In this document: one piece after another, positions 1 to 9,690 of the stretch | Layout: each line of letters begins with the position of its first letter | How positions within the stretch are numbered: the first letter of the stretch is position 1 | NCBI GenBank assembly: GCA_015075585.1 | Contig: JABTUB010000002.1 | Location: 124,001 to 188,000, forward strand | Length of the DNA stretch: 64,000 nucleotides | Direction of reading: 5' to 3' | Source: Chloracidobacterium sp. | GTDB lineage: Bacteria; Acidobacteriota; Blastocatellia; Pyrinomonadales; Pyrinomonadaceae | Translations under genes and position numbers: made by a program | The notes under the pieces: model-generated | What the model saw: only the letters and a program-made list of their open reading frames with translations | What the model was told of the DNA's origin: nothing | Database searches by the model: none

Positions 1-99
1 CAATAGACTATAACATAACGAAAAGTTGGCGATCAGCCGCCTTTTTGTATTAAAGAACCGCCATGCTAACATTGTCGTGTCTGCCGTCCGAAACACTCG

Positions 100-861
100 A
101 TGCCAAAGCATGAAAAAAAGGTTGTCGATATAACGACACGCACGAACGAAAGGCCCCGGATGCCCGAGATCGCACCCGACCAGACCCTCTGCGACCAATG
201 CTACGGCGTCGGAATGATCGTCATACCCGGCAAAGGTGCGAAACCGTGCAGCTGCCGTAAGCGGGACCTTTTTACTGACGGTATCGACAAGGCGAACGTC
301 CCAAAACGCTACGCTTCATGCCATATCAACAACTTCAAGCCTGAGACCGCTTCGCAACGCCATGCACTCAAGATGGCCGAGACCTTCGCACGCGAATTTC
401 CCGCCGTCGATCGCGGCCTCCTGTTCATGGGCAGCGTCGGCGTCGGAAAGACCCACTTGGCAGTCTCGATCATCAAACTCATCGCTGAACGCGGTTTCTC
501 CTGCCGCTTTTATGAATTCGGCACTCTGCTCAAGGAGATACAGAACTCATATAACCCGCGAACCGACAGTTCGGAAGACAGCATCCTCGGCAATGTTTTT
601 GATTGCGATGTGCTCCTGCTCGATGAACTCGGCGCCGCCAAGCCTACCCACTGGGTGATGGACACCCTCTATCACATCATCAACACTCGCTACAACGACA
701 AGAAGGCGACGATCTTTACAACAAATTTCCTCGACGAACGCACTGATCCGCGGATCGAGATACTCGAAGACCGGATCGGCGTGCCTGTTCGCTCCCGCCT
801 ATACGAAATGTGCGCAACGGTGCCGATGACAGGCAACGACCACCGCCGCAAACTCGCATAG
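100..861 (+). CDS. DnaC/DnaI-like AAA+ ATPase (putative replicative helicase loader)
   Basis: A 253-residue cytoplasmic P-loop ATPase of the DnaC/IstB type. Cysteines C31, C34, C50 and C52 form a likely zinc-binding knuckle. The Walker A motif GSVGVGKT is at about 111-118, Walker B VLLLDE at about 171-176, and a sensor-1-like TTN at about 208, followed by an Arg-rich segment near VRSRLYEM. No transposase is adjacent, so an IstB transposition helper is less likely than a DnaC/DnaI-type loader that delivers the replicative helicase. No Shine-Dalgarno sequence is visible before the ATG. The family assignment is firm; the loader role is inferred. Confidence 0.8.
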   Translation: MPKHEKKVVDITTRTNERPRMPEIAPDQTLCDQCYGVGMIVIPGKGAKPCSCRKRDLFTDGIDKANVPKRYASCHINNFKPETASQRHALKMAETFAREFPAVDRGLLFMGSVGVGKTHLAVSIIKLIAERGFSCRFYEFGTLLKEIQNSYNPRTDSSEDSILGNVFDCDVLLLDELGAAKPTHWVMDTLYHIINTRYNDKKATIFTTNFLDERTDPRIEILEDRIGVPVRSRLYEMCATVPMTGNDHRRKLA

Positions 862-6884: not shown

Positions 6885-7002
6885 TCCTGCTAAAAAGCGA
6901 TGGTCCTGAGAACGAATTTTATAAAATTCGGAACAAAACTTGATCGCTGAGATCTTTTTTTTCTTTTTTTTCACGGTCACCCTCTCGCATAAATTTTCCG
7001 CC

Positions 7003-7108
7003 TGTGGAAAACTTCGTCGGATGTAATTGACACTGTCTTTTAGCCTTAGCTGAGAACGCCGTTGCCGAGCCGCGATCCGTACACACCATTATCCACAGGT
7101 TTTCCACA
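7003..7108. promoter_or_regulatory. Cluster of DnaA-box-like sites
   Basis: TTATCCACA at 7089-7097 matches the consensus DnaA box exactly. TTTTCCACA lies at 7100-7108 and its reverse complement TGTGGAAAA at 7003-7011. A T-rich tract (6954-6971) is just upstream. The sites lie between rpmA and the candidate RNA promoter. They could be a DnaA-responsive regulatory region; only three boxes are seen and no dnaA or dnaN is nearby, so an origin call is not justified. Confidence 0.45.
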
Positions 7109-7111
7109 GAA

Positions 7112-7129
7112 AGCCCGTAAATACGGGCT
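7112..7129. promoter_or_regulatory. Operator-like palindrome upstream of the candidate RNA gene
   Basis: AGCCCGTA (7112-7119) and TACGGGCT (7122-7129) form a perfect 8-2-8 inverted repeat ending 20 bp before the -35 box at 7150. No T-tract follows, so it reads better as a protein-binding site than as a terminator. Confidence 0.45.
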
Positions 7130-7149
7130 AGAGTTAAAGTATTTTCTAC

Positions 7150-7177
7150 TTGACTTCCGTTTTTTCCGGGTTATTAT
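7150..7177 (+). promoter_or_regulatory. Strong promoter of the candidate large ncRNA
   Basis: TTGACT at 7150-7155, a 16-nt spacer and TATTAT at 7172-7177, near-consensus at both boxes. Predicted start near 7184. No credible coding frame follows on this strand before the terminator at 7741. Confidence 0.65.
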
Positions 7178-7183
7178 GTCCAT

Positions 7184-7796
7184 ACAGTCGAAGTTGCTCA
7201 CGGGTACTTTGACCAGCACCGGGAGGTGGATGGGTTGCGGCGACGCATCTCTTCGAAAGACGGCAGGAGCGGAAGCCACCGTTTGAAACGCCCGGAGTTG
7301 AAGCCGAAAGGCTTGTGCTGAGAACCGCTAGACAGTTCTCGATCGGCAGGACGCTTCGGCGGATCGCCTGATCTAATGTCACAGGGATAAAAACCTGAGA
7401 CGCCTTGCGAGAAATGATCAGCTCGAAAGGTGCACAAAAGTCGCTCGCGAAACCTGTTCGCAGCATACGCGAGCCTCGTTGCCGGGGACGTAACCGGCGG
7501 TGGAGGAAAAGCCACCAAAACAAAAACCTAACGGCACCTCGACAGCATCCTTGCGGTGCGAACGAGAGAAAGGATCTAAGTTCGCTTTTATTCTTCGTGC
7601 TGGCCGGCGATCAAAAGCTCCCCGCAGAGCGTCGTCGGAATAAAAAACAGGCAAGTGCCCTATGTACAAGGGCATTTGCCACACCCTTAGCCCCGCCGGT
7701 ACGCGAGTCTTCGGAATCGATGCCCAAAGGTGAATAAGGAAAAAACAAAAGCGTTGATCTTTTCAAGCAATTGAAAAGATCAACGCTTTTGTTTTT
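7184..7796 (+). ncRNA. Candidate large structured non-coding RNA (~600 nt), unassigned family
   Basis: The stretch runs from a near-consensus promoter to a very strong terminator, has no plausible gene, and is dense in stable hairpins. Examples: AAGCC-GAAA-GGCTT at 7301-7314; GAGAAC/GTTCTC at 7320-7340; an arm at 7341-7373 capped by CGC-TTCG-GCG; CTCGCG/CGCGAG at 7444-7473; GCCGG/CCGGC at 7481-7498; GGTGG/CCACC at 7499-7516; and an 11-bp stem at 7650-7680. GNRA and UUCG tetraloops recur, as in folded functional RNAs. I compared it by eye with RNase P RNA, tmRNA, SRP RNA, 6S RNA and group II domain V and found none of their conserved cores. Expression and function are inferred. Confidence 0.55.
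7741..7796. terminator. Perfect 26-bp bidirectional terminator
   Basis: The arms 7741-7766 and 7771-7796 are perfectly complementary around a GCAA tetraloop. The outer part is A-rich on one side and T-rich on the other, so it can terminate both the candidate RNA (plus strand) and clcA (minus strand). The clcA stop codon at 7795-7797 overlaps its edge. Confidence 0.85.
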
Positions 7797-9690
7797 ATGC
7801 GCCGTCTTCATCATGATCATCCTTCTGCTCGCTGCCTCGGGCGGACTTTGCACGGGCCTTCGCCATGGCCAATACCGATGGAAGCTGCAGCACCTGTTCC
7901 CTTCGGGTTTCGGCCTCGAGGTGCAGCACTCGTGCCGAAAGCAGGTTATTGAGCGAGATCGTGCCAAGCAATCGCGTCGGATCTTCGCGATCAACAACCG
8001 GAAACCGCGTAATGCCCGTTGCTGCCATCCTTTCAACGACCGGCCTCAGCGGTTCATCATCAAAGACCACCTGCGGATCGTAATGCGTGATCTCAGAGAG
8101 CCGCCCGTTCGGGTCGCGGTCGGCTCTTTGGATAGCAGCGCGTAGGTCGCGGCGGGTTACGACACCTACCAACCTATCGTCCGCGTCCACAACCGGGTAC
8201 ATATGTTGGACTCGATCGGAGAGGTCTGATGATATCAATCGAGCCAACTCCTTATTCGTACGCCCCTCATGCAAGGCGTCAATATCAGTACGCATAACCT
8301 CCCGTGCAAATGTTATCTCCATCGGATCGAGTGAATATTCCCGACTCATATGATAACCACGCCGAGCGATCTTTTCTGTAAGGATCGAACGGCCAAGCGT
8401 CAGAACGGTAAATGCGTGAGCGATGGTTACCGCAGTAAGCAGCGGAAGAAGCATGTTGATGTCGTGTGTCAACTCCAATGCGAACACGATACCGGTGAAC
8501 GGGGCCCTCATTGTACCGCCTAAGATCGCACCCATACAGACAAGAGGCCAAAACCCGACGCCTTCTGCAGGCAAGATGCCGCTCAAAACGCCTCCGAGTG
8601 CTCCGCCCATCATCAGTAACGGGGCTAGGACGCCGCCGGATGTACCTGAACCGAGGGAAATGATCCAGATCGAGGACTTTACAATAAGCACGCCCATAAG
8701 GACCTTGATCGGCGCCTCGGTTTGGAGGAAACCGCGTATCACGTCATAACCGACACCTAAGGACTGCGGAAAGATCAGGCCGCCGACACCAACCGCAACG
8801 CCACCGATAGCGGGCCACCACATCCAATGGATCGGAAGCTTGGCAAATGCATCCTCCGATGCATACACGCCCTTCGTCAGCAGAAGCGAGAGAACTCCGG
8901 CAAGCACGCCCGCAACGACGCACCCCAACAGTCCGTCAAACCCGACAAATCCCGGGAATGGGCCCGCCGGAAACAGCGGCGCAGGATCGAGGAGATATCG
9001 CCGTGCCGTCGTAGCCGCGGCACAGGCAAGAGCGACAGGGATCATACTTCGCGGCTTCCATTCGAACAGCAGCAGTTCGACTGCCAGCAGCACCGATGCT
9101 ATCGGTGCACCAAAGGTCGCGGCCATTCCGGCGGCTGCACCAGCTACAAGTAAAGTTTTTCTTTCGGAACTTGTAAGCCGAAAGAACTGTGCGATCATCG
9201 AGCCGAACGCACCGCCGGTCATAATGATCGGACCTTCCGCTCCGAACGGCCCGCCAGATCCGATCGAGACAGCGGACGAAAGCGGTTTCAGCAATGCGAT
9301 CTTCGGCTGGACTCGGCTGCCATTCAAAAGGATCGACTCAATAGCCTCGGGAATTCCGTGGCCCCTGATCCTCTCCGATCCGTACCGGGCCATTATTCCG
9401 ATGATCACGCCGCCAATAACCGGCACAAAGATGATGAGCCAACCAAGCGTATTTCCAGCCGGAGAGACACTTTCGAAACTCAACCGATGATAGAAGAAGA
9501 CATTTGTAAAGAATGCAATTAACCGCAGCAAGAGCCATGCGATGCCTGCCGCTGCGGTCCCAATTACGATCGCGAGGCCCGAGATGCGAATTATCCGCCG
9601 TTTTGTAGTGAAGTCACCGAGATCAGCGGCACTTGAATTCTCAAAGCGTGTCCAAAACCCCGTATTTTCCGCAACGGTACCATCTGTCAT
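7795..9690 (-). CDS. ClC-family chloride channel/antiporter with C-terminal CBS pair
   Basis: A 631-residue inner-membrane protein. The membrane core (about 40-450) carries ClC signatures: RGHGIPEAIE, GSGGPFGAEGP with the gating Glu, and GVLAPLLMMG. A Glu in LLLFEWKP aligns plausibly with the internal proton glutamate of antiporters, favouring Cl-/H+ exchange over a pure channel. Two CBS domains follow at about 475-595 (MYPVVDADDRLVGVV; RFPVVDREDPTRLLG), probably a nucleotide-sensing regulatory module. A strong GGAGGGGG precedes the ATG. It converges on the candidate RNA gene and shares its terminator. Confidence 0.9.
   Translation of the reverse strand: MTDGTVAENTGFWTRFENSSAADLGDFTTKRRIIRISGLAIVIGTAAAGIAWLLLRLIAFFTNVFFYHRLSFESVSPAGNTLGWLIIFVPVIGGVIIGIMARYGSERIRGHGIPEAIESILLNGSRVQPKIALLKPLSSAVSIGSGGPFGAEGPIIMTGGAFGSMIAQFFRLTSSERKTLLVAGAAAGMAATFGAPIASVLLAVELLLFEWKPRSMIPVALACAAATTARRYLLDPAPLFPAGPFPGFVGFDGLLGCVVAGVLAGVLSLLLTKGVYASEDAFAKLPIHWMWWPAIGGVAVGVGGLIFPQSLGVGYDVIRGFLQTEAPIKVLMGVLIVKSSIWIISLGSGTSGGVLAPLLMMGGALGGVLSGILPAEGVGFWPLVCMGAILGGTMRAPFTGIVFALELTHDINMLLPLLTAVTIAHAFTVLTLGRSILTEKIARRGYHMSREYSLDPMEITFAREVMRTDIDALHEGRTNKELARLISSDLSDRVQHMYPVVDADDRLVGVVTRRDLRAAIQRADRDPNGRLSEITHYDPQVVFDDEPLRPVVERMAATGITRFPVVDREDPTRLLGTISLNNLLSARVLHLEAETRREQVLQLPSVLAMAKARAKSARGSEQKDDHDEDGA

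Follow-up and report, generated by a model that had tools for sequence, protein, structure and literature searches.

New bacterial RNA classes of about 600 nucleotides (nt) are rare, and the large ones already known, OLE, GOLLD and ROOL, opened unexpected biology. In OLE, the inner four nucleotides of a symmetric kissing loop change from one palindrome to another (PMC12286853), and the gene adjacent to OLE encodes a protein that binds it (PMC5643018). GOLLD and ROOL are large, ornate and form multimers that contain self-interacting loops (PMC12286853), and Lactobacillus salivarius has an abundant, long and free-standing 520-nt long non-coding RNA (PMC5643018). Here we describe an RNA gene at positions 7184-7796 of a 64-kb stretch of Chloracidobacterium sp. 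(contig JABTUB010000002.1, positions 124,001 to 188,000; hereafter, the window). We are fairly confident that its product is a free-standing, trans-acting RNA of about 560-600 nt that represents a new RNA family restricted to one family of Blastocatellia, with its own promoter and terminator, probable control by DnaA and a likely role as the scaffold of a ribonucleoprotein.

Like OLE, the RNA is about 600 nt long, free-standing and built of many helices, and its UGUACA/UGCGCA loop may switch between palindromes as the OLE kissing loop does. Unlike OLE, it gives no covariance-model match to that family, and its neighbouring genes vary between genera, whereas the neighbour of OLE encodes the OLE-binding protein. 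It shares with GOLLD and ROOL a large ornate form and a candidate self-interacting loop, but it is chromosomal, lineage-conserved, flanked by DnaA boxes and without an Rfam match. The L. salivarius RNA, set apart from ours by its description only, is borne on a megaplasmid in another phylum.

Novelty and distribution of the RNA

No family of Rfam 15 matched the window at its gathering score. At E-values up to 10, the region 7000-7900 gave only hairpin-like matches on the terminator and a few chance matches; the microRNA families among them are artefacts of a long hairpin. Five homologous loci returned one irrelevant match, below its gathering score. The models for RNase P RNA, tmRNA and 6S RNA had no match at the locus, and elsewhere in this genome RNase P RNA is found at C1:1677035, tmRNA at C1:795604 and a 6S candidate at C1:1549420 (42.3 bits, below the 46.4 cut-off). 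A search of the open-access literature, with subscription papers outside it, found no description of this RNA. Judged by these comparisons, we regard it as a new RNA family, and its resemblance to the large ornate RNAs is one of size and style only.

To follow the RNA across genomes we used DNA searches, motif scans and a covariance model of its core domain (R1), the last for the class and phylum searches. Of 40 genomes searched at the DNA level, every one of the 24 congeners had the locus and none of the others did; the core at 7471-7538 is 88-99% identical in the 23 other congeneric loci. A motif scan of 84,980 GTDB species genomes gave 58 loci, 57 of them this RNA, in records nearly all named Pyrinomonadaceae, Blastocatellia, Acidobacteria or Aridibacter. 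One locus in an Oscillospiraceae record (L077) matches only the 21-base search motif and is not this RNA. Within the class, 83 of 162 genomes were positive with R1, down to E=6e-60; they span 19 genera and all belong to one family of Pyrinomonadaceae-like Blastocatellia. Across the phylum Acidobacteriota, R1 found no convincing homolog outside that family. Two matches were dismissed as chance: L205 (f6, 22.8 bits) sits in apparent protein-coding DNA, and in L201 (f10, 22.5 bits) only part of the model aligned. The gene is essentially single copy, with two matches only in G083 and G128, both draft bins.

A preliminary description of the window, made from its sequence, had guessed at a new class that was perhaps lineage-restricted, and had named three observations that would speak against it: a match to a known RNA family, a protein frame shared by relatives, or a lack of conservation in related genomes. 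We looked for all three and saw none of them, and the confinement of the homologs to one Blastocatellia family bears the guess out.

Signals, boundaries and fold

The features of the locus are as follows.

7003-7011, minus strand: distal DnaA box TTTTCCACA, recognised by its sequence
7089-7108, plus strand: tandem DnaA boxes TTATCCACA-GG-TTTTCCACA, at fixed offsets upstream of the promoter in homologs
7137-7151, plus strand: AAGTA-N5-TACTT, an operator-like inverted repeat that overlaps the -35 box; present in 45 of 61 homologous promoters
7150-7177, plus strand: sigma-70-type promoter TTGACT-16-TATTAT, position conserved in homologs
7184-7796, plus strand: structured non-coding RNA gene, about 560 nt plus terminator, with ends predicted from promoter and terminator
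7187-7213, plus strand: 5' hairpin closed by GUC/GAC, inner loop UYACGG; double changes at 7 of 11 pairs
7214-7300, plus strand: helix 7214-7223/7291-7300 around several hairpins; double changes at 9 of 9 pairs, column pair 40-114 at E=0.004
7301-7314, plus strand: hairpin AAGCC-GAAA-GGCUU with GNRA tetraloop, 99.7% paired
7378-7401, plus strand: covarying hairpin with conserved loop GGAUAAAAAC; double changes at 7 of 8 pairs, best pair E=0.0007
7443-7474, plus strand: hairpin at the 5' edge of the conserved core, from homolog alignments
7471-7538, plus strand: near-invariant core, GCCGG/CCGGC (7481-7498), GGUGG/CCACC (7499-7516), then CAAAAACCUAACGGCAC; invariant columns
7532-7602, plus strand: helix 7532-7538/7596-7602 closing variable hairpins; compensatory changes
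7604-7638, plus strand: hairpin with invariant apical CCGC loop, from homolog alignments
7650-7680, plus strand: 3' hairpin with self-complementary UGUACA loop (7663-7668), a candidate symmetric kissing loop, from a 79-locus survey
7704-7719, plus strand: hairpin with UUCG loop; double changes at 6 of 6 pairs
7741-7796, no strand assigned: perfect 26-bp hairpin with T-runs on both strands, which ends the RNA and on the opposite strand can serve the convergent clc gene

The promoter consists of TTGACT (7150-7155), a 16-nt spacer and TATTAT (7172-7177). A promoter scan by itself performed at chance level, with 2 promoter-like sites found in 3 kb where 1.7 were expected, and conservation across homologs is therefore the real test. 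In about 60 homologous loci a TTGAC element and a -10 box stand at the matching position; the promoters were assigned automatically in 61 loci, and one or two (e.g., L086) are visibly mis-set. At the other end, the arms of the terminator (7741-7766 and 7771-7796) form a perfect hairpin flanked by T-runs on both strands, and its stem covaries among homologs, with double changes at 18 of 18 pairs.

The 613-nt strand folds more stably than shuffled sequences (z -7.4 including the terminator; z -2.6 for the 560 nt without it). RNAalifold gave a consensus of 154 pairs for 77 full-length homologs, with 87.3% canonical pairing and double changes at 122 pairs (1770 such cells). When the 3' partners were slid by 1-3 columns, 39-47% paired, with 77-91 double-change pairs and 364-536 cells, a comparison that flatters the RNAalifold structure because the structure was derived from the same alignment. 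In the alignment fitted by covariance model (A2), 97.7% of cells pair versus at most 46.5% when slid, and there are 72 double-change cells versus at most 17. A tree-aware null of our own implementation, in which substitutions are reassigned along branches, is independent of any predicted structure; under this null six column pairs, every one of them canonical, remained at E<0.05. Among the helices, support is strongest for the 5' hairpin, 7214-7223/7291-7300, 7378-7401, 7443-7474, 7532-7538/7596-7602 and the terminator.

No open reading frame at the locus is conserved: in the alignment, 78% of gaps have a length that is not divisible by three, and the longest frames of different homologs lie in different frames. 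The locus thus combines its own promoter and terminator, a fold supported by covariation and the lack of a conserved frame, as in a free-standing structured non-coding RNA gene. The promoter, the terminator hairpin and the lack of a credible gene had all been claimed in the preliminary description and are upheld here, and the GNRA and UUCG tetraloops it had pointed out are real (GAAA at 7301-7314, UUCG at 7704-7719) and sit within conserved helices.

The loop of the 3' hairpin was surveyed in 79 loci and is self-complementary in 72 of them: TGTACA in 67, TGTGCA in 3, TGCGCA in 1 and TGGCCA in 1, with none in 7. The window retains UGUACA despite changed flanks. TGCGCA is a symmetric double change of TGTACA, and TGTGCA is the wobble step; a variant pattern of this kind supported the symmetric kissing loops in OLE and GOLLD (PMC12286853). 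With few variants at hand, the UGUACA loop is a candidate homodimer contact and stays a lead.

Transcription of the RNA is supported indirectly, by the conserved promoter and terminator and by two phage contigs. Among 2.9 million IMG/VR contigs, motifs of the RNA occur in only two (L223 and L224), both from single-stranded RNA (ssRNA) phages (Leviviricetes-like). L223 encodes a replicase (PF03431) and a maturation protein (PF03863) and carries a piece of the RNA at 199-390 (plus strand; R1, 160.8 bits); L224 encodes a maturation protein (PF03863) and carries a piece at 1-300 (minus strand; R1, 80.9 bits). Each piece runs in the same sense as the phage genes; one is at the 5' side of its contig and the other at the 3' end of its contig. 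From the biology of these phages, such contigs should derive from RNA libraries, and homologs of the RNA were therefore probably in the RNA pool. The pieces are most simply read as chimeras with an abundant transcript; either chimeric cDNA or assembly, or true RNA recombination, could have produced them.

DnaA boxes at the promoter

The window holds only three TTWTCCACA sites, all just upstream of the RNA promoter (7003-7108). This cluster lies outside 7184-7796 and is absent from the preliminary description. In 55 of 61 homologous loci, boxes recur at fixed distances upstream of the promoter. The upstream sequence holds 148 boxes in 12.2 kb (12 per kb) versus 2 in 243 kb of background (0.008 per kb). 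Their offsets from the -35 box cluster around -62, -85 and -97; those in the window are -147, -61 and -50. This genome has only two tandem box pairs, one just downstream of dnaA, in the dnaA-dnaN region, and one at the RNA, both with an 11-bp start-to-start spacing. Across 13 genomes, the tandem pair matched 45 times (20 at dnaA, 15 at the RNA and 10 elsewhere), with a pair at dnaA in 12 genomes and at the RNA in 10. The boxes are kept in genera in which the locus has been relocated (L042, L047, L073) and therefore travel with the promoter. The inverted repeat AAGTA-N5-TACTT is a possible operator of some regulator; in one clade (L176, L179, L180, L184) AAAATAAAACAC stands in its place.

DnaA probably controls the RNA promoter. 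The DnaA-controlled transcription units known to us control protein genes; they likewise have DnaA boxes upstream of a sigma-70-type promoter, but the product at the present locus is a structured RNA, not a protein. In the mechanism we propose, transcription of the RNA would start at a sigma-70-type promoter and stop at a terminator, both its own, and DnaA on boxes at fixed, roughly helically phased offsets would control that promoter, such that the RNA level would track DnaA or the replication state of the cell. The transcript would fold into about 20 helices around the near-invariant core, and the folded RNA itself would act, most likely as the scaffold of a ribonucleoprotein and possibly as a homodimer joined via the self-complementary UGUACA loop of the 3' hairpin.

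Genomic context and alternative readings

In genus g1 the RNA gene occupies the interval between rpmA and obgE: rplU-rpmA precede it, and obgE or a convergent clc comes next. The chloride-channel-like clc gene (7795-9690 in the window) is inserted between the RNA gene and obgE in seven g1 loci, the window and six others, and the T-flanked terminator hairpin can stop clc too. In other genera the neighbours, which were named by eye from sequence and not by family search, are changed: acetyltransferase-like and kinase-like genes near L042 and L047, HIT-like and EamA-like genes near L082, L089 and L091, and others near L050 and L084.

The box cluster would also suit a locus that is primarily a DNA element dependent on DnaA, either a secondary start site of replication, for which the RNA would be a structured primer somewhat like RNA II of ColE1, or a DnaA-titration site like datA, with the RNA as part of that device. 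It is the most consistent tandem cluster after that of dnaA, in this genome the sole one besides it, and a structured RNA of about 550 nt begins next to it. Nevertheless, the GC skew shows no sign switch near C2:131 kb (20-kb samples, sparse) and no clear switch in G058 (sparse and noisy samples), the boxes are fixed relative to the promoter, and both the conserved terminator and the compensatory changes found along the RNA favour a folded product that is terminated. We regard such an element as unlikely; an oriC at the locus, considered for the DnaA boxes, was set aside on the GC skew. Because the boxes travel with the promoter and the skew gives no sign of an origin, control of the promoter by DnaA is favoured, though not proven. 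As a separate observation, the sampled skew (sparse) suggests that C1 and C2 of G000 may form one chromosome rather than two replicons.

The g1 arrangement invites a reading as a cis-acting leader or attenuator of obgE, or an element of an rpmA-obgE operon, since most g1 loci lie between these genes and the core ends 200-250 nt upstream of obgE. This is improbable: a covarying intrinsic terminator ends the RNA, the convergent clc separates it from obgE in the seven loci given above, and the next genes in other genera are unrelated. No consistent same-strand downstream gene, as for a leader or riboswitch, was found (clc is convergent in the window), and the variation of flanking genes between genera indicates that the RNA is not a leader. 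Size and ornateness, the GNRA loop and a hairpin loop that is self-complementary, as are the symmetric kissing loops reported for OLE and GOLLD (PMC12286853), would fit a very diverged member of a known large family (OLE, ROOL, GOLLD, HEARO or a housekeeping RNA), but the Rfam searches, which gave no relevant match even at E up to 10 or in the five homologous loci, and the RNase P RNA, tmRNA and 6S candidate already present elsewhere in the genome make this very improbable. Open frames of more than 100 codons, mainly on the minus strand, and the pieces in the two phage contigs could hint at a protein-coding gene or the remnant of a mobile element. We give this hardly any credence, as gap lengths and frames vary among homologs as described above, the gene is essentially single copy, a plasmid search found no match and the viral matches are limited to those two contigs.

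Several points weigh against a family-wide, DnaA-controlled ribonucleoprotein RNA as preferred here. When 36 genomes of the family were re-searched with laxer filters, no convincing match appeared, and several of them are >95% complete. Assembly breaks explain some of the missing matches, as homologs at contig ends (L012, L021, L048, L076, L087, L094) indicate, but only some; the locus often falls at contig ends in metagenome bins, and a core shared unchanged by co-occurring species is the probable reason. The RNA may thus not be universal in the family, and true absence is possible in some lineages. The case for DnaA consists of box sequence and position, the phage contigs are indirect evidence and may be chimeric assemblies, and we found no partner protein, target or phenotype of the RNA. 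One clade (L090, L182, L186, L191, L192) has lost the self-complementary loop, essentially the only loss because the other two of the seven loci (L154, L183) were read at a later hairpin, and GUAC could also be an ordinary tetraloop.

The fullest form of the reading, in which a new large RNA class under direct DnaA control acts as a homodimer or ribonucleoprotein and couples the replication state to another process of the cell throughout the family, is doubtful at present. The core is near-identical between congeneric species, and the gene is essentially single copy across a family that is common in soil metagenomes. Its promoter bears a box cluster otherwise typical of the dnaA region. If DnaA does control it, we know of no earlier large structured RNA with such a link to the replication initiator.
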